Source of the DNA: Colwellia polaris
GTDB taxonomy: Bacteria > Pseudomonadota > Gammaproteobacteria > Enterobacterales > Alteromonadaceae
NCBI RefSeq assembly: GCF_002104515.1
Contig: NZ_NBOE01000001.1
Coordinates: 744,001 to 808,000, forward strand
DNA: 64,000 bases
Direction: 5' to 3'
Shown here: piece after piece, positions 2,290-36,066 of the stretch
How the letters are laid out: each line of letters opens with the position of its first letter
Numbering within the stretch: the stretch's first letter is position 1
The notes under the pieces: generated by a model
The model's database searches: none
What the model was told of the DNA's origin: nothing
The model's input: the letters and a program-made list of their open reading frames with translations, nothing else
Translations under genes and position numbers: made by a program

Positions 2290-2520
2290 ATGAAACGTAT
2301 AATCCTCTACACCATGAGTAACTGCCCGCATTGTCAAACGGCTAAGCGCTATATGGAAGATAAAAATATTCCTTTTCGATTGTGTAATATAAAAACGCCA
2401 GCCGGGCAAAAAGAATTTTCAAAGTTGAATTTGCGTGGTGTACCTGTTGTAAAAGTTGGCGATCAAATACTGAAAGGTTTTGACGTTAAACGTTTTAATC
2501 AACTGCTGAAAAATGATTAA
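2290..2520 (+). CDS. Glutaredoxin-family protein (CPHC)
   Basis: A 76-residue single-domain glutaredoxin fold. The dithiol active site is CPHC near residues 12-15, the cis-Pro loop is GVPVVKVG and the terminal helix follows GFD. The size fits small NrdH/Grx-like redoxins that reduce disulfides in the cytoplasm. The dithiol motif separates it from CGFS monothiol glutaredoxins. It stands alone between the FAH-family gene and the diguanylate cyclase. The reductant (glutathione or thioredoxin reductase) cannot be decided from the sequence. Confidence 0.85.
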   Translation: MKRIILYTMSNCPHCQTAKRYMEDKNIPFRLCNIKTPAGQKEFSKLNLRGVPVVKVGDQILKGFDVKRFNQLLKND

Positions 2521-2784
2521 GCAATTTCATTAGTACTCGCTAGTTTTAGCCATTATGAGTTTTTTAGCCAGATACTATGGCGCGAGAGTATAAAATTTAT
2601 ATTTCACTGGTTTTAAAACTAATGTGGTTGCTTAACACGAGTGGTTAATTTTTTTGTTGTTTGTACTGTTAATCAATGGCTCATTATCCCGAATTAAAGC
2701 AGTTTCAGGTAACTGCATAAACGGTTTACTCTTATTTATGAGCACTATTAAATATGTACGCTATTTGATATTTCGTTATGGTGT

Positions 2785-4722
2785 ATGATTTTTGATCGTT
2801 CATTTTATATTTTTGTGGTAGTTTACTTACTCGTATATATATATTCTTTCCATGGGCCTTTTATGAATCAAGCTTTGCAAGCTATTTATGTAAGTATCGT
2901 CATAATATTGTTAAGCTTCTCTGTAGCATCAATAGCGAATGAGACTATTGATTTTGAAAACATGGAACATGAAATTTACCTTAAACCTTGGCAGTCTTAT
3001 CAAAAAATTATTGCTGTAGAGTCAGCAGCACAATCTTATAACGAACTAACCTACCTGTGGTGGCTTGTACGCAAAGCACAAACAGAAAATTTAATTTACT
3101 TTTACGATGATTTTAGTCATACCGTTACTCTAGCGAGCGGGTTAGTTTCATCGAAAACTCCGTTGGAAATTACAGCGCGTTTAAGTTTATATCAAGGGCT
3201 TATAGACCGAAGAAATGGTCATTACAAATCATCTAGTGTCGCTCTCTCTAAAGGCTTAATGCAGGCTAAAGAAGCTAAACTAAGTAGGCTGTATATCTAC
3301 ACTAAACAAGAGCTTGCCTACACCAAAACATTAACCGAACTCTTTGACACATCACTCGTCGACATCCAAGAGGCTTATGTTGAGGCTTTTGCGCTTAAAG
3401 ATCAGTTTTTAATTGCTTCAATTAATGAAACTTATGGTGCTATCTACGGATACTTAAATGATTATAAAAAATCAATAGAGTACTACCACAGAGCTTATGA
3501 TGCCTATCAAAATTTACAATATCCTGCTCATATTGCCGAAGCAATTTATGGTTTAGCTTCAACTTATCGTTATTGGGAAAAGTATGACTTAGCCATTGAG
3601 TATTTCGAAAAGTATCAACAACAAATTAATTATACCCCTAATGCCAATATCAATTTCTTTGCTGAATATGGCCTAGGTATGACCTTAGCAGAGAAGGGCG
3701 ACTGCCTTGAAGCGATTACAATAATAAATAGAGCTTTGAAGCTTAAAGGTGTAATTGATTACAATGCAGAATTATATAAACGAAAAGCCAGTTGTTTGAT
3801 TGAACTAGGGCAACTTGACGCTGCTGAAGAAGCTATTTTTGAAGCAGCGAGTATCTTTGCTAATATTCCAGAGTTAATAGGCACCACTTGGCAACTTGAA
3901 GTGATAAAACTATCTAGCGTATTAGCTTATGCACGTAAGCAATATGATATTGGCTACAATATGCTCAATAAATATCATATTGAACATACAGATTTACTGA
4001 TAAAAAACTCTTCAGATAGACTCTTAAAAGTGAGAGCAAGGATGGAAGTTGAGCGTCATAAAATAGCACAAAACCTGGCAGAAAAACGTTCTCAAGTTCA
4101 ACTGCTTGAGCTCGAAAAACAACAGAATGATAATGTCATTCAAATCTATTTTAATATTTTTATAATTACGGCTATTTTCATCGTTATCGTTGTTATGGTC
4201 GCTCAATATAAAACCAACAAAAAAATGCATTTATTGTCGATAAAAGACTCTTTAACTGGGTTATTTAACCGACGCTACATTTTTGAATATTTAGAAGAAG
4301 CTATTCAAGGACGTGATCCTGATAAATTTTCCACAACAGTTGTGTTAATAGATATTGATGATTTTAAAGTAATAAATGATACTTATGGTCATCCTGTGGG
4401 CGATGATGTTATCAGAAAGGTTGCTCAAGTGGGCCGAGATGTTTTTCGTCAAGGAGATATCTTCGGACGTATTGGTGGTGAGGAGTTTTTATGCATTCTA
4501 CCAAGAACAACGGTGCTTGAAGCGACAAAAATAGCAGAGCGATTTTTGGCATTAGTTTCATCATCAACTATGGTTGAAGGTCAGCAAGATAAGATTACGG
4601 TAAGTATAGGAATTGCCGCATTATCTTCTCAATGCCAAGATATAAATCAATTATATATCAATGCCGATCAGGCGCTTTACCAGGCAAAGCACTCTGGAAA
4701 AAATCAAGTTCATGTTTTTTAA
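2785..4722 (+). CDS. TPR-repeat membrane diguanylate cyclase (GGDEF)
   Basis: 645 residues. The layout is an N-terminal hydrophobic segment, an extracytoplasmic helical region with TPR-like repeats (about residues 140-400, e.g. YHRAYDAYQNLQYPAHIAEAIYGLAS), a coiled-coil stretch before a membrane helix (about 455-478, IYFNIFIITAIFIVIVVMV), then a GGDEF domain starting at DSLTGLFNRR. The active site is GGEEF (residues 564-568). The inhibitory I-site RQGD sits five residues before it, so the enzyme should make c-di-GMP and be feedback-inhibited. An internal ATG at 2863 would give a cleaner signal peptide (MNQALQAIYVSIVIILLSFS) and may be the real start. The sensed signal is unknown. Confidence 0.87.
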   Translation: MIFDRSFYIFVVVYLLVYIYSFHGPFMNQALQAIYVSIVIILLSFSVASIANETIDFENMEHEIYLKPWQSYQKIIAVESAAQSYNELTYLWWLVRKAQTENLIYFYDDFSHTVTLASGLVSSKTPLEITARLSLYQGLIDRRNGHYKSSSVALSKGLMQAKEAKLSRLYIYTKQELAYTKTLTELFDTSLVDIQEAYVEAFALKDQFLIASINETYGAIYGYLNDYKKSIEYYHRAYDAYQNLQYPAHIAEAIYGLASTYRYWEKYDLAIEYFEKYQQQINYTPNANINFFAEYGLGMTLAEKGDCLEAITIINRALKLKGVIDYNAELYKRKASCLIELGQLDAAEEAIFEAASIFANIPELIGTTWQLEVIKLSSVLAYARKQYDIGYNMLNKYHIEHTDLLIKNSSDRLLKVRARMEVERHKIAQNLAEKRSQVQLLELEKQQNDNVIQIYFNIFIITAIFIVIVVMVAQYKTNKKMHLLSIKDSLTGLFNRRYIFEYLEEAIQGRDPDKFSTTVVLIDIDDFKVINDTYGHPVGDDVIRKVAQVGRDVFRQGDIFGRIGGEEFLCILPRTTVLEATKIAERFLALVSSSTMVEGQQDKITVSIGIAALSSQCQDINQLYINADQALYQAKHSGKNQVHVF

Positions 4723-4850
4723 TCCAAAATCATCTTCATTACGTATAACCACTCATTAATAAAAAAACTTGTTGTCTGTTTAGTTCAAAGTACAGAAAAG
4801 TTAAGTTTTTCAGGTTAAACGTAAACTAAAAATTCAAACATTTATCAATT

Positions 4851-5981
4851 ATGAATAATTTACATCGGCTTGCTGAAGCCATTATTTTAAGTTTACAAGA
4901 ATATATTAACCAGCGAAGGTTTCGTGCATTAATACATTTTGAGTTAGAAGGGTGTTTTCAAAAGCCAGTAAATAAAACCCTTGATTATAGCCAGGTGAAT
5001 AAAAAACTATTAACACTGGGAATAGATGGTGAGGTAGTGGCTGAATATTGGAGTAATCAATGGGAGTATATTTCTCTTTTTAATGGTCAGTCGCCATTAA
5101 AAGAAGCCAGAAATTTACATCGTGCTATTTACTATCTACCGAAATTATTTGCCGAACAAGGGGTTACTAGAACGCTTATCAAACCTGTGGTTTGGGCGGG
5201 TGATCACGGCAAGTTGGCTACAGGATGTGAGAATATCTTTAGTGGTGATAATCGTGCGGTTCATATACCTAATGCGGTTCAAATTAATGTTAGTGTGCAA
5301 GACTTAGCGGGAAATAACTTGTTGGTATCAGGTAATTTTGCTGAACGTTTGCAGCAGCACTTTTTAAACACTAGTTTAGCTTGTAGCCTGATTTATTTAC
5401 CTGAGGAAGAAGCTTTTGAGCGCTTAGCACTGAAATCTAAATATGGCTTGGCAGAAGAGCTATGTTCACCTGTAGATCTGTCAGGTGGTCATCAAGGCAG
5501 CATCGCGCTTTATCGTGATATAGGTAAACATAATCAGAAAATGGGGGTTGAGCCCTTACTATATGATGATAAAAATAATGTTATTGCTAGTCAAAATAAC
5601 TGGCACAAAACAGCGCGCATAGAGCATAGATTAGGGGCATCAAGCGAGCACTATAATCCTTACTTAAATGTGATTTTTGCTTTGTTGAATGTGATTGATG
5701 CTATTGATGAAACCACAATTAGTGGTGCGCAAGCCCAAAATGAAAATGGGCAGCTACCGAGTTCGTTATATGATATGGATAATACGCTTGGTGCTATTTC
5801 ATTATTTGCTAACAGTGAATGGTTCAGTCGCAGTATTGATCAGGTAATTTGTAAGACAAGTTTTAACATTGAAGATTTAAACCTTAACTTAAACTTTAAT
5901 AACGCTAGCGAGTTAACCGTTGGGCAATTATTACAGCAGTATTATTTAACACTTTTTCAACCGCCGAGTATCGTTACATAA
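4851..5981 (+). CDS. Glutamine-synthetase-like (GS-fold) protein of the ovothiol operon
   Basis: 376 residues, without signal peptide. I see no close named family, but the order of motifs follows the catalytic domain of glutamine synthetases: FELEG (E31, E33; compare E-x-E of GS), QWE (70-72; compare GQxE), GVTRTLIKPVVWAGDHG (104-120; compare the KP...H stretch), and RIEHR...NPYL (256-272; compare RxExR...NPYL). The GS N-terminal beta-grasp domain is absent and the protein is about 100 residues shorter than GSI. It is the first gene of a tight cluster (55 bp to ovoA, then 40 bp to ovoB), so an ATP-dependent ligase or amide-forming role on ovothiol or a precursor is inferred, not shown. No strong Shine-Dalgarno precedes the ATG. 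Confidence 0.6.
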   Translation: MNNLHRLAEAIILSLQEYINQRRFRALIHFELEGCFQKPVNKTLDYSQVNKKLLTLGIDGEVVAEYWSNQWEYISLFNGQSPLKEARNLHRAIYYLPKLFAEQGVTRTLIKPVVWAGDHGKLATGCENIFSGDNRAVHIPNAVQINVSVQDLAGNNLLVSGNFAERLQQHFLNTSLACSLIYLPEEEAFERLALKSKYGLAEELCSPVDLSGGHQGSIALYRDIGKHNQKMGVEPLLYDDKNNVIASQNNWHKTARIEHRLGASSEHYNPYLNVIFALLNVIDAIDETTISGAQAQNENGQLPSSLYDMDNTLGAISLFANSEWFSRSIDQVICKTSFNIEDLNLNLNFNNASELTVGQLLQQYYLTLFQPPSIVT

Positions 5982-6035
5982 ATATTTTGATTTAAATACA
6001 CCGGTAAAACGATAATAAAATTTAGTGAATATTAC

Positions 6036-8144
6036 ATGATAAATCAATTAAATACGCCAACTCTTAATGGAACGTCAATAAAGGAAAAAAGAGCAGAGTT
6101 AAGCTCTTACTTTAAAAATACCTGGTCGACTTACGAGTCATTGTTCTCTTTAATTAATGATGATGAAGCTTACTTTTTACGACCTGAATCGCTAAGACAT
6201 CCATTAGTGTTTTATTTTGGACATACGGCGACTTTTTATATCAATAAATTGATTTTAGGAAAGTTTATTCCACAACGGGTTAACAACCAAATAGAAGCTA
6301 TTTGTGCAGTAGGTGTTGACGAAATGAGTTGGGATGATCTCAACAGCGAACACTATGATTGGCCAAGCATTGATGAAGTTAGAGCGTATCGCCAGGAAGT
6401 GTACAATTTAGTTTTAAATTTAATCGACACCATGGAGTTAAGTTTACCGATAACTCAAGACTCATTGGCGTGGATTATTTTAATGGGTTGTGAACATGAG
6501 CGTATTCACCTTGAAACGTCTTCGGTGATCATGAGAATGTTGCCATTAAAGTGGCTAACAAATAATGCGCAATGGCAACCTTGTATACATTCATCGAGTG
6601 CGCCAGCAAATGAACTTGTCTCTGTGAAAGCACAATCCTTAAACTTAGGAAAAAAGCAAACAGACAGTACCTTTGGCTGGGATAATGAGTATGGGCAACA
6701 AACCGTTGACGTTGAAGCATTTAGTGCCGGCAAGTTTTTAGTGTCTAATCAAGAATACATGGAATTTGTTGAAGCTGATGGCTATCACTCTAAGCAGTTT
6801 TGGTGTGAAGAAGGTCAAGCATGGTTAGCCTATACGCAAGCGAAAATGCCGAGATTCTGGCGCTACAATAATGGTAAATATAGCCAACGTAACTTAGCAA
6901 ACGAAATGCCATTACCCTTAGATTGGCCGGTAGAAGTTAATTGTTTAGAAGCTAAAGCATTTTGTCGATGGTTAGAACACAAAAGTGCCGACTACATTCG
7001 TTTGCCTACCGAAGCGCAGTGGTATTGTTTACGTGAGCAAGTTAAAGGAGATCAACATCAATGGCATGAAACGCCAGGCAATATTGATTTAGCCTACTTT
7101 GCTTCTTCTTGTCCGGTTAACCAATATAAAAATGGTGATTTTTTCGATGTTATTGGTAATGTCTGGCAATGGACCGAGTCAGCCATTGATGGCTTTTCTG
7201 GCTTCAAGGTTCATCCACTTTATGACGACTTTTCAACGCCAACTTTTGATGGCAAACACAATCTCATCAAAGGGGGCTCTTGGATTTCTACCGGAAATGA
7301 AACTTTAGCCTCTTCACGTTATGCTTTTAGGCGACACTTTTATCAGCATGCTGGTTTTAGGTATATTGCCAGTAAGCAACCTAGCAGCGGGCAAGTCAGT
7401 GTTAATAAATATGAAACCAGTAAAGATATTTGTCAGCAACTTGACTGTTATTTTGGTGCTAACAAACTTGGCTTTGAAAACTACGGACAACAAATAGCTC
7501 AACACGTTGTTAGTGCAATAACCAAGCAAAACAATGCAGCTAAACGTTTGTTGAACTTAGGTTGTAGTGTCGGGCGAGTGGCTTTTGAATTAAGTCAGTA
7601 TTTTCAACATATTGATGCCGTGGATTTTTCTGCACGTACAATACAGCATGGCGTGCAGTTGCAAGCGGGCGGTAGCGTGCGTTATACCGATACGATTGAA
7701 GGCGATATTTGTCAATTTAATGAGCTTTTTTTAGCGGATAAAGTGGCAGCAGTAAATCGCGAACGCATACTGTTTAGTCAAGCTGATGGCGGTAATTTAA
7801 AAGATAAATTTAATCATTATGATGTTATTTTAATTCAGCATGCACTAGAGCAAAGTTATGATCCTAAACGCTTATTGGCCAATGCTGTTAGTCGTTTAAA
7901 TACTTCGGGTTTATTGATTATAGTTTCAGATTATAATTTTCAAACACAAATCACAGAAAAGTCTAAATGGCTAAGTGGTATAAAAGTTAATGGCGAAAAT
8001 TTATCAGGCATTGATGCGTTAACCAGTGAGCTTCAAGACAGTTTTGAACAAGTTCTCCTGACAGACTTAACCCGGGTGATTGCTGATGCTGCACGTAACT
8101 TTAATGTTAGCCAATGCCAGCTTAGTGTATGGCGAGCGTTATGA
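6036..8144 (+). CDS. ovoA: 5-histidylcysteine sulfoxide synthase / mercaptohistidine methyltransferase OvoA
   Basis: 702 residues with the three-domain OvoA layout. The N-terminal DinB-like domain carries the iron-binding H-x3-H-x-E (H154, H158, E160 in MGCEHERIHLE). A central formylglycine-generating/sulfatase-modifying domain follows (about 200-450, with GNVWQWTES, KGGSW and the AGFRYIAS end). The C-terminal SAM methyltransferase has motif I LLNLGCSVGRVAFEL near 505. OvoA joins cysteine to histidine with O2 to give the C5 sulfoxide and later N-methylates the imidazole, making ovothiol A. The separate C-terminal methyltransferase distinguishes it from most EgtB proteins. It is cytoplasmic and is followed by the lyase gene needed for the middle step. 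Confidence 0.93.
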   Translation: MINQLNTPTLNGTSIKEKRAELSSYFKNTWSTYESLFSLINDDEAYFLRPESLRHPLVFYFGHTATFYINKLILGKFIPQRVNNQIEAICAVGVDEMSWDDLNSEHYDWPSIDEVRAYRQEVYNLVLNLIDTMELSLPITQDSLAWIILMGCEHERIHLETSSVIMRMLPLKWLTNNAQWQPCIHSSSAPANELVSVKAQSLNLGKKQTDSTFGWDNEYGQQTVDVEAFSAGKFLVSNQEYMEFVEADGYHSKQFWCEEGQAWLAYTQAKMPRFWRYNNGKYSQRNLANEMPLPLDWPVEVNCLEAKAFCRWLEHKSADYIRLPTEAQWYCLREQVKGDQHQWHETPGNIDLAYFASSCPVNQYKNGDFFDVIGNVWQWTESAIDGFSGFKVHPLYDDFSTPTFDGKHNLIKGGSWISTGNETLASSRYAFRRHFYQHAGFRYIASKQPSSGQVSVNKYETSKDICQQLDCYFGANKLGFENYGQQIAQHVVSAITKQNNAAKRLLNLGCSVGRVAFELSQYFQHIDAVDFSARTIQHGVQLQAGGSVRYTDTIEGDICQFNELFLADKVAAVNRERILFSQADGGNLKDKFNHYDVILIQHALEQSYDPKRLLANAVSRLNTSGLLIIVSDYNFQTQITEKSKWLSGIKVNGENLSGIDALTSELQDSFEQVLLTDLTRVIADAARNFNVSQCQLSVWRAL

Positions 8145-8184
8145 GAAAATATATCATCAAATTGTTGCGTATAAATTATTCGTT

Positions 8185-9354
8185 ATGACGACACACTCAT
8201 TACCAAAGCATATTGCTTTTAGCCAAAGCCTTGCGAGTTATACAAAATATAATTTAAGTGACTCTACCGCTCAGGCTTTAACACTAAACCAGCTCTGTAT
8301 TTTGGCGGACAGTAAAGTAGATAAAAGCAATACTCAACACGCTAACTTAGGTGACACTCTGCTGCAATATTCCCCTTTGCAGGGGGATCTAGTATTGCGC
8401 CAAGAAATCATTAATTTTCATCAAGCGCTAAATAGTCATACAAGTAAAATTGGTGTTGATAACGCGATAACCTTTTGCGGAGCACAGGAAGCATTATCGG
8501 CTATTTATCAATCGTTGCTCAGTGCTGAAGATGAAATTGTTGTGATGACACCAAGCTACCCTTCATTAGTTAACATGGCAAAGTCGATGGGCGTTATTGT
8601 TAGGGAAATACCACTTTGTGCTGATAATAATTGGCAAGTCAATATTGATGATTTTAAACGTACAGTAAACGATAAAACTAAGCTTATAGTGATGAACTCG
8701 CCGCATAACCCAACGGGCAGTGTTATAGCTACAGAGCTAGCTGAAGAAATACTGCAATTGGCGCAACAATATCAGTGCTACCTATTAAGTGATGACGTCT
8801 CCCAAGCAAGCAATTATTATGGTTTAGCGTTAGCGCATCGTTACTTAGATTATCAAAAGAGTATTGTTGTTGGTGTTATGTCAAAAAGTTTGGGTTTAGC
8901 TGGCATTCGCATTGGCTGGGCTGTTACCCCAAATAACAAACTACGTGATCAGCTGCTAGCTATTAAAGCGGTCAATTCTATTTGTTGCTCTAAAATAGAC
9001 GAAAAGTTAGCAGTATTAGCCTTACAAAATCGCAGCGAAATTTTAGCTAATAATAATCAGACTATTCTCGATAATATTTCACTGTTCAAGGCTTTTATAG
9101 ACAGACATTCAGACAAGCTCGGCTGGCAACCACCTAAGGCAGGTATGCTATCGTTAGTTGAAGTAAAAAATATTAGCTCAATAACATCATGGGCTGCTCA
9201 GGTTACTCAAGAAAGTGGCGTGCTTTTACTGCCAAGTGAATTGTTTGGTATGACTGGCAATTATTTTCGTTTGGGGTTGGGGCAAAAAAGTTTTGCTCAT
9301 ACGTTATTGGTTTTTGAACGTCAGTTGTTATCAATGGATAATGGTATTGTTTAA
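8185..9354 (+). CDS. ovoB: PLP-dependent aminotransferase-fold lyase, probable OvoB
   Basis: About 389 residues of fold-type I PLP enzyme. Motifs: FCGAQEALSAIY (cofactor-binding helix), MTPSYPSL, NSPHNPTG, the Schiff-base lysine in VMSKSLGLAGIRIGW, and YFRLGLG near the end. Its place 40 bp after ovoA makes it the candidate sulfoxide lyase that releases 5-mercaptohistidine from histidylcysteine sulfoxide. Family similarity alone would say only class I/II aminotransferase. A longer reading frame begins at 8080 inside ovoA. I chose ATG 8185 because the extra 35 residues overlap ovoA and look non-domain; the Shine-Dalgarno there is weak. Confidence 0.8.
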   Translation: MTTHSLPKHIAFSQSLASYTKYNLSDSTAQALTLNQLCILADSKVDKSNTQHANLGDTLLQYSPLQGDLVLRQEIINFHQALNSHTSKIGVDNAITFCGAQEALSAIYQSLLSAEDEIVVMTPSYPSLVNMAKSMGVIVREIPLCADNNWQVNIDDFKRTVNDKTKLIVMNSPHNPTGSVIATELAEEILQLAQQYQCYLLSDDVSQASNYYGLALAHRYLDYQKSIVVGVMSKSLGLAGIRIGWAVTPNNKLRDQLLAIKAVNSICCSKIDEKLAVLALQNRSEILANNNQTILDNISLFKAFIDRHSDKLGWQPPKAGMLSLVEVKNISSITSWAAQVTQESGVLLLPSELFGMTGNYFRLGLGQKSFAHTLLVFERQLLSMDNGIV

Positions 9355-9437
9355 CTGCTGACTTTAGCGTGAAATTCAGCAGTTAACTTTTTAAAGCACT
9401 TAGGTTTTAAGTACGTAGGTTTTAAAGTAAATAGGTT

Positions 9438-10073
9438 TTAAAGTACGTAGAAAAATATCATAAAAAAGTGACAAACAGCGGCAGAAAATACAAAAAAGTG
9501 CCAAATTGCATGGCTGTACTTTGCGTTCTTTCTAACATAGAAGATAGTACCTAAGCCATAAATTATCCCGCCTAAAGCGAGTAAGAACATGCCTTCAGTG
9601 GCAAGTTTATCATTTAACTTATCAATAAAAGTTAGTGATATTAAGCCTAAGCCTAAGTATGTTGCCAATGAGAGCTTTTTAAATCTACTGCCAAATTTAA
9701 CTTTAAAAACAATACCTAAGATTGCCAATACCCAGATAATAGCGAGTACTATTGGGCCAATATCGTCTGCTAATGTGACCAACATCAGTGGCGTATAAGT
9801 ACCAGCAATTAATAAATAAATCGCGCAATGATCGAGTAGTTTAAAAATGCGCTTCGCTTTTTCATGTAATAACGCATGATATAAGGTTGAGGCGCTAAAT
9901 AATAAAACTAGGCTTATGCCATAAACGCTAAAACTTGCAACCTTTACCATATCAGCCTGTAACCAAGCTAAGGTTACTAGCAGTGTTAAGCCAGCAACGC
10001 TGAGTAATGCTGCTAGCCCATGACTAACCGCATTAATAATTTCTTCTGCTAAACCGTAAGCCTGATTTTGCAT
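9438..10073 (-). CDS. trhA: Hemolysin III family membrane protein TrhA/YqfA
   Basis: About 211 residues with seven predicted membrane helices, of the hemolysin III / PAQR-like family. Landmarks are the early EEIINAVSHGLAALLS motif, DHCAIYLLIAGTYTPL in the middle and a late His in AIWHFFVFSAAVCHFF, which together form the conserved His/Asp metal site. E. coli YqfA (TrhA) affects membrane energetics and fatty-acid homeostasis; hemolysis itself is not established for this group. The start at ATG 10073 has AGGA nine bases upstream and is preferred over a TTG at 10100. It is a single gene, convergent with ovoB. Confidence 0.9.
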   Translation of the reverse strand: MQNQAYGLAEEIINAVSHGLAALLSVAGLTLLVTLAWLQADMVKVASFSVYGISLVLLFSASTLYHALLHEKAKRIFKLLDHCAIYLLIAGTYTPLMLVTLADDIGPIVLAIIWVLAILGIVFKVKFGSRFKKLSLATYLGLGLISLTFIDKLNDKLATEGMFLLALGGIIYGLGTIFYVRKNAKYSHAIWHFFVFSAAVCHFFMIFFYVL

Positions 10074-10435
10074 GTTTAATATTCCTATTTCAGTGTACAA
10101 GTGTACGCCGAGTATAATATCAAACCATAAAATGAAATGCTAGTGGTCTGACCTTTTGAGATTTTAAGCAATAAAGATAGATTAAGAATGTATAAATAAA
10201 GCTTAATGAAACTGTCGATAGCTTGAAGCTATATTCTTTTAAAAAGCCGTGTTTCGCTATTAAGTAAGCTGTTTTGAAAAGCTGAAACTAAGGAAAACTT
10301 AAGTTATTAGCGTAGATGAAAAATAATTAAATATAGGCGAGATAGGGTAAATTTACCTACAAGAGAATGAGTGTAAGTAATTATGGCAGTACTTTACTGA
10401 CCTTGTAAAAATGCCAAAGATTAAACATCAGCGTG
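10074..10435. other. Intergenic stretch without recognised gene
   Basis: About 360 bp between trhA (leftward) and the terminator of the next leftward gene. I see only a short perfect hairpin, ATAGCTT-G-AAGCTAT near 10218-10232, without a T-run, and no convincing open frame or promoter. Confidence 0.4.
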
Positions 10436-34497: not shown

Positions 34498-36066
34498 TTG
34501 ACTTTATCATTAAACGAATATATCTCGGCTTTCTCTCAATTTGAGCACTTATCCAGTTTTAGCCAATTTGGTCGAGGCATAGAACGCGAAGCACTACGAG
34601 TGCTGCCACAAGGGCGTTTATCTGATCGCGAACACAGTGTACTTATCGGCTCTGCTTTAACACACCCGAATATAACTACCGATTATTCAGAAACCTTGCT
34701 TGAATTTATTACGCCTGTTAGCCAAGTACCTGAAATGGCAATCGCACAGCTAGAAGATGTACAAAAATTCACCTTAAGCCAACTTGACGGTGAATTGTTA
34801 TGGCCAATGAGTATGCCATGTTTTGTTGAAGACGATGACAAAATACCTTTAGCGCAGTTTGGAAAATCCAATATTGGTAAAATGAAAACGGTTTATCGAC
34901 AAGGATTGAAAAACCGTTATGGCAGTATGATGCAAGTTATTTCGGGTATTCATTTTAATTTTTCTTTTCCACGTAGCTTCTTTCAGTCGATGCAAACGAT
35001 AGAAAAAAACACTGATAACCTTGATGACTATATTTCTGATAAATATTTTTCCTTGCTCAGAAACTATAAACGATTTTGTTGGTTGATTCCCTATTTGTAT
35101 GGCAGTTCACCTGCTATTTGCAGCTCCTTTTTAAAGAACAAACCGACCGACTTACCGTTTAAAAAGTCTGAAAAAGGCTACATGTACCTTGAGCATGCAA
35201 CGTCATTAAGAATGAGTGACTTAGGTTATACTAATAGCGAACAATCATCGTTACAAATTTGCTATAACAATTTATCGGGGTATTTAGATGGTGTGAAAAA
35301 CGCGATTAACTTACCGTCGAAGAAATTCGAGAAAATTGGCATTAAAGTAGACGGTAAATACCAACAGCTAAATAGTAACGTATTACAAATTGAAAACGAG
35401 TTATACGCACCAGTACGCCCAAAGTGTGTTGCTAAACCAGGTGAAAAACCATCTGAAGCGTTAAAAAATCGAGGCGTAGAATACATAGAAGTGCGAGCGC
35501 TTGATGTTAACCCCGATTCGGCAACAGGTATCAGCGTTGAACAAATTCGATTCTTAGATATTTTCCTGACGTTCTGTATGTTAGAAAATAGCCCTACTTT
35601 GAGCTGTAACGAACAGGGGATCTGTGAGGAAAATATGGATGAAGTTGTTGTGCGAGGCCGTGACCCACAATTATTGTTACGTGATGGTGAGCAAGATAAA
35701 TCAGTACAACAATGGGGCGGTGAGCTATTTGCTAAAATGACTAAAGTTGCAGATCTACTAGATGAAGCGAATCAAAGTAAACGCTATATGAATGCACTTA
35801 ATTGTGAAGCCGAAAAAATAACTCACTCGAAACTAACCCCATCGGCAAAAATATTATCTGCCATTGTTGATGAAAATCAATCATTAACGAAAATGGCATT
35901 AGCGAAAGCAACAAACTACCGCCAACAGCTATTAGCCAATGACTACCAAGCGTTTAATGCACAATATTTTAGCGACACAGTGGCTACCTCATTGCAAAAA
36001 CAGTTGGAAATAGAACAAAGTGACAAGGTAGATTTTGACACTTTTCTTCAAGATTACTTTGCTTAA
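34498..36066 (+). CDS. gshA: Glutamate-cysteine ligase
   Basis: About 522 residues, similar in length to E. coli GshA (518). Conserved stretches: GRGIEREALRVLPQG, TTDYSETLLEFITP, ELLWPMSMPCFVEDD, QVISGIHFNFSFP, GSSPAICSSFL, and YIEVRALDVNPDSATGISVEQIRFLD. It makes gamma-glutamylcysteine, the first step of glutathione. The start is TTG at 34498 with AGGA seven bases upstream; the frame is open to 34462 but the extra residues do not fit the family. In Vibrio and Shewanella it precedes luxS and corB. Confidence 0.95.
   Translation: MTLSLNEYISAFSQFEHLSSFSQFGRGIEREALRVLPQGRLSDREHSVLIGSALTHPNITTDYSETLLEFITPVSQVPEMAIAQLEDVQKFTLSQLDGELLWPMSMPCFVEDDDKIPLAQFGKSNIGKMKTVYRQGLKNRYGSMMQVISGIHFNFSFPRSFFQSMQTIEKNTDNLDDYISDKYFSLLRNYKRFCWLIPYLYGSSPAICSSFLKNKPTDLPFKKSEKGYMYLEHATSLRMSDLGYTNSEQSSLQICYNNLSGYLDGVKNAINLPSKKFEKIGIKVDGKYQQLNSNVLQIENELYAPVRPKCVAKPGEKPSEALKNRGVEYIEVRALDVNPDSATGISVEQIRFLDIFLTFCMLENSPTLSCNEQGICEENMDEVVVRGRDPQLLLRDGEQDKSVQQWGGELFAKMTKVADLLDEANQSKRYMNALNCEAEKITHSKLTPSAKILSAIVDENQSLTKMALAKATNYRQQLLANDYQAFNAQYFSDTVATSLQKQLEIEQSDKVDFDTFLQDYFA

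Follow-up and report, generated by a model that had tools for sequence, protein, structure and literature searches.

The ovoA locus of Colwellia polaris

The 64,000-nucleotide window of Colwellia polaris analyzed here (positions 744,001 to 808,000 of contig NZ_NBOE01000001.1) carries an ATG-started open reading frame at 4851..5981 on the forward strand, which heads the ovoA operon and encodes a 376-residue protein with a predicted glutamine synthetase (GS) fold, termed GSL here. An earlier note on this DNA had picked out GS-type motifs in the protein by eye, and all lie where it placed them: E31/E33, Q70-W71-E72, R256-R260 and N269-L272. The following gene, ovoA (6036..8144, forward strand), encodes a sulfoxide synthase plus N-methyltransferase of 702 residues; it runs in the same direction, as had been claimed, with its ATG (6036) 54 bp from GSL rather than 55 bp. 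Many marine bacteria have a GSL gene directly 5' of ovoA, and this position suggests a further step that makes or modifies ovothiol.

OvoA of the window spans its full length and scores above cut-off for the two curated domains (TIGR04344, 663.5 bits against a cut-off of 400; TIGR04345, 237.4 bits against 170), and its residues 19-700 match the solved chain 8khq at 735.8 bits. The third gene has a longest frame opening with TTG at 8080; from the ATG it spans 8185..9354 on the forward strand and encodes 389 residues of a pyridoxal phosphate-dependent enzyme, probably a lyase, of the aminotransferase class I/II family (Aminotran_1_2, E 4.9e-46). Its product reached the cut-off of no NCBIfam model among the matches listed (25 of 104 families), and none of its 53 solved-structure matches bears the name OvoB. 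It is probably OvoB, the name used in the earlier note, because of its enzyme class and position. The nearest named relatives of GSL belong to Colwellia and Cognaticolwellia. A scan of window positions 2500-10200 against Rfam returned no match, and scans for promoters and terminators stayed close to chance level (18 vs 16.0 and 6 vs 3.9, respectively).

Predicted fold and active site of GSL

No Pfam family, PF00120 (Gln-synt_C) included, and no NCBIfam family among the matches listed (25 of 104) matches GSL above cut-off, so routine annotation likely overlooks this family. PF00120 is touched by one of 30 homologues (E 0.19), the single protein found no match among PDB sequences, and a 25-row GSL profile returned chance-level matches only, the best being methylaspartase (E 0.22). 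The relationship to GS emerges when alignments are compared with hhalign. An alignment of 30 GSL rows, 44-81% identical to the window protein, matched a 14-row mixed GS alignment of GlnA and PuuA-type proteins at 93.5% (E 2.2e-7, score 61.7), where the top score from 100 column shuffles of the GS alignment was 32.5 (11.1%). Against a 9-row PuuA-type alignment it reached 88.0% with a score of 53.3, compared with at most 24.2 in 100 shuffles; for both GS alignments tested, the real score exceeded every shuffle. Reversed-alignment controls scored 15.0 and 15.7, 12 unrelated families encoded in these gene neighbourhoods gave at most 0.7%, and the earlier 25-row GSL alignment gave 83.0-85.5%. The signal requires a PuuA-type or mixed GS alignment; a GlnA-only alignment (21 close rows, Neff 1.7) gave just 1.7-2.7%, so the kinship is invisible with that profile.

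Structural modeling agrees with the profile comparison, and on both lines of evidence the GS-type fold claimed in the earlier note holds: GSL is predicted to adopt the GS catalytic-domain fold, and all 50 structures listed as matches are GS-family proteins, at 14-20% identity. One loop of the model (202-213) has a predicted local distance difference test score below 50. GSL begins, in the alignment with a GS-like protein, opposite residue 102 of the latter, and the first catalytic glutamate of GSL is preceded by 30 residues, as opposed to 128 in GlnA (residue 31 vs 129). The N-terminal GS beta-grasp domain is therefore missing, as had been proposed, and alignment and predicted structure concur on this point; the VIA ranges, which give ends only, start at chain residue 13-40, so that a few residues were superposed in that part.

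Two familiar identities were considered and rejected. GSL is not the housekeeping GlnA, a point on which the earlier note was right, as the sole PF00120 gene of the genome sits on another contig (C6). Nor does it replace a missing GshA, since the genome carries a PF04262 gene, gshA, at 34528-35646 (forward strand) of the same window (Glu_cys_ligase, E 1.1e-159). The suggested special kinship to gamma-glutamylcysteine ligases and EgtA was not borne out: GCS2 and GshA profiles gave at most 0.5%, from small alignments (four rows each) that did not include EgtA, and neither GSL nor its 30 homologues has a Pfam match to GCS2 (PF04107) or Glu_cys_ligase (PF04262). Nor do the 30 homologues have a Pfam match to any acetyltransferase, GNAT family included.

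Residue equivalences were taken from the hhalign alignment (30 GSL rows, 14 GS rows), with GS residues numbered by the genome's own GlnA, whose positions we take to be those of E. coli; this protein has E212, E220, R321, E327, R339, R344, E357 and R359 at exactly those positions. Identical in every GS and GSL row are E129, E131, E212, E220, E357, R355, R359, S273 and G265. GSL keeps, in 30/30 rows, all five catalytic, metal-ligand glutamates of GS (129, 131, 212, 220, 357) and the R359 position. In the window protein, E31-L32-E33 (codons 4941..4949, forward strand, as are those below) aligns with the metal ligands E129 and E131, both glutamates being invariant in the two sets; E65 to E72 (EYWSNQWE, 5043..5066) aligns with E212 and E220, again both glutamates in 30/30 and 14/14; and R256 to L272 (RIEHR...NPYL, 5616..5666) aligns with R355, E357 and R359, with R256, E258 and R260 equally invariant. 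The segment Q144 to S148 (QINVS, 5280..5294) stands at H269-x-H271-x-S273 of GS, and Q144, N146 and S148 are each found in 30/30 GSL rows. Judged by these alignments, the metal chemistry of GSL looks intact and its substrate end remodelled.

Linkage of GSL to ovoA

To catalogue the distribution of GSL, genomes were drawn at four taxonomic ranks, with genomes recurring between draws. GSL was found in 59 of 246 genomes from the window's family; ovoA was above cut-off in 75, all 59 GSL genomes among them. In 59/59 cases ovoA lies 3' of GSL on the same contig and strand, with the matched parts 36-405 bases apart. The hypergeometric P for this co-occurrence is 2e-42, a value that ignores relatedness; the link is not chance. 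Nine of 247 genomes from the order have GSL, all within the 44 that have ovoA, and the loci fetched for these nine place GSL beside OvoA. Four of the nine come from three other families, where the link holds with different flanking genes; in the family of G629, GSL occurs in 1/7 genomes. Linkage to ovoA, predicted in the earlier note, is thus conserved both within and beyond the family; fold and linkage are two of the three points on which that note said its reading could fail. The class and phylum draws yielded 2/369 and 5/398 GSL genomes, all in the window's family. GSL without ovoA was not seen in the draws, of which the class and phylum draws were not searched for ovoA, and the plasmids searched contained no GSL.

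We then compared 48 loci, comprising the window, 13 relatives and 34 chosen loci that include 12 of the 16 family genomes with ovoA only and 10 of the 28 in the order's other families. GSL and OvoA are the only genes common to all 26 GSL loci. The gap between them has a median of 43.5 bp; L041 and L102 show a 4-base overlap of the two frames, and a gap of -110 in L116 is probably an artefact of equating the gene with its longest frame. OvoB follows OvoA in 15/26 GSL loci. A TPR-GGDEF (diguanylate cyclase) gene, which in the window lies upstream of GSL at 2785-4722 on the forward strand, is likewise upstream in 15/26, with another gene intervening in L044; L094, a locus without GSL, has it ahead of OvoA too. 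In the 26 loci, which were largely found via GSL, no other neighbour accompanies this OvoA as constantly as GSL does.

A tree of 47 OvoA proteins, from which a length filter removed the broken OvoA of L104 (G240; OvoA in two frames, GSL intact), contains a fully supported branch (100/98). One side holds 25 GSL-linked rows and one without GSL and covers four families; the other holds the remaining 21 rows, all without GSL, and this other OvoA type is carried by other genera of the window's family. GSL distances follow those of OvoA (r 0.947 over 25 loci) but are similarly correlated with those of GGDEF (0.935, 14 loci) and OvoB (0.974, 14 loci), such that the GSL-OvoA correlation is not independent proof. 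Neighbouring genes may stay together by descent, and a GGDEF gene kept upstream in 15/26 loci, whose distances track those of GSL nearly as closely as OvoA does, would fit an accident in which GSL has an unrelated function and merely retained its place beside ovoA. This explanation is weakened by the 59/59 linkage, with none of the 59 lacking ovoA, and by the persistence of the link in three other families despite different flanks; we consider it very improbable.

Proposed function

With a predicted GS fold, conserved catalytic glutamates and strict ovoA linkage in view, we give an even chance to GSL being an active single-domain enzyme of the GS structural superfamily, specialised for a single lineage of the ovothiol pathway. 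As the earlier note suggested, it may be a ligase for cysteine, histidine or ovothiol, forming an amide on a pathway metabolite at the expense of ATP. GSL would bind ATP and divalent metals, turn a carboxylate into an acyl phosphate and couple the acyl group to an amine, and 5-thiohistidine or ovothiol would leave the pathway as an amide conjugate. Candidate conjugates are N-alpha-glutamyl or other aminoacyl derivatives, or an amide of the molecule's own carboxyl group; the GS residues that hold glutamate and the ATP phosphates appear changed, so the partner acid may be something other than glutamate.

Alternatively, GSL may act on the substrate side. It would then convert cysteine (or histidine) into an amide, gamma-glutamyl or other, for coupling by its partner OvoA, the part that EgtA plays for EgtB when ergothioneine is made (PMC9103826). 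The product side, 5-thiohistidine or ovothiol, is favoured because the genome already has its own GshA (PF04262), because no deglutamylating or amidohydrolase-like gene is conserved across the 26 loci, because OvoA retains its full domain set, and because an ovoA-linked enzyme acylating the same alpha-amine is known (PMC12631010). The lack of GCS2 or GshA profile signal likewise speaks against the substrate side, as does the strong preference of one characterised OvoA for cysteine over gamma-glutamylcysteine (PMC9103826). We tentatively propose, at somewhat less than an even chance, that GSL makes a class of thiol not seen before, in which 5-thiohistidine or ovothiol is conjugated through an amide bond, for use by Colwellia and related marine bacteria. 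If so, one example might be gamma-glutamyl-ovothiol, which would resemble glutathione but carry an aromatic thiol.

Several observations weigh against a product-side ligase. With the thresholds that we set, six columns separate the OvoA proteins of the GSL clade from the others, and three of these columns (165, 166, 168) lie right behind the HERIH motif; position 168 is M in 25/25 GSL-linked members vs Q in 19/21 others. These clade-typical residues could point to a changed OvoA substrate, which keeps the EgtA-like, substrate-side alternative alive, albeit as an unlikely one. GSL is also absent from 16 of the 75 ovoA genomes of the family. In L094 (G032), OvoA belongs to the GSL clade and GSL is missing, with no remnant found in the gap beside OvoA (best E 0.27), and in L103 (G163) GSL is broken by in-frame stops beside an open OvoA, through natural loss or sequencing error. 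GSL is therefore dispensable in some strains.

The apparently remodelled substrate end is a further difficulty. In GS, H269 is a metal ligand; in 30/30 GSL rows its position is Gln (Q144) and that of H271 is Asn, while R321, R339 and R344 face G199, Q229 and the variable E234, in a gapped mapping of low confidence. GS-like binding of ATP or substrate is consequently not assured. These changes, in a protein always beside OvoA, would suit a GS-fold binding or regulatory partner, such as a sensor of ovothiol or ATP or an OvoA chaperone; we hold such a non-catalytic role to be quite improbable, given that the five glutamates and the R359 position are kept in 30/30 rows, in homologues down to 44% identity to the window protein. 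A metal site that is kept while the amino-acid site has changed is also compatible with GSL phosphorylating ovothiol or 5-thiohistidine instead of forming an amide, in the manner of the guanidino kinases, enzymes with the same catalytic fold as GS. All 50 structures listed are GS-family proteins, in a comparison that did not cover guanidino kinases, and we know of no phospho-ovothiol; this phosphotransferase activity seems highly improbable to us.

Comparison with known systems

GSL differs from GS and GS-like ligases (GlnA, PuuA-type proteins, GmaS, 1-naphthylamine GS) in matching no Pfam model above cut-off, in having no room for the N-terminal domain before its first catalytic glutamate, in the Gln at H269, apparently in the arginines 321, 339 and 344, which find no aligned Arg in the low-confidence mapping, and in its 14-20% identity. 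It also differs from the GCS2 and Glu_cys_ligase families by profile, and a separate GshA is present in the genome. With EgtA and the gamma-glutamylcysteine ligases it may share an analogy, that of a ligase working beside a sulfoxide synthase of the OvoA/EgtB type (PMC9103826). A literature search of titles, abstract starts and term counts, in which subscription literature was thinly covered, found no GS-fold protein described with ovoA. GSL is of a known kind, the GS superfamily, and its family, architecture and pathway link look new.

The enzymes known to act on 5-thiohistidines are few. According to a 2025 paper, OvoA is, besides the acetyltransferase described there, the only known enzyme that recognises a derivative of 5-thiohistidine (PMC12631010); the PDB also lists separate methyltransferases, OvoM and OvsM. 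If confirmed, a GS-fold ligase with conserved linkage to ovoA would add new chemistry and a direct handle on bacterial use of ovothiol. A parallel is that same acetyltransferase, the ovoA-linked 5-thiohistidine N-acetyltransferase (5THNAT) of Proteiniphilum, which was likewise found via linkage to ovoA and has the target metabolite proposed here for GSL; 5THNAT differs in resembling GCN5-related N-acetyltransferases and using acetyl-CoA, whereas GSL has a predicted GS fold (PMC12631010).
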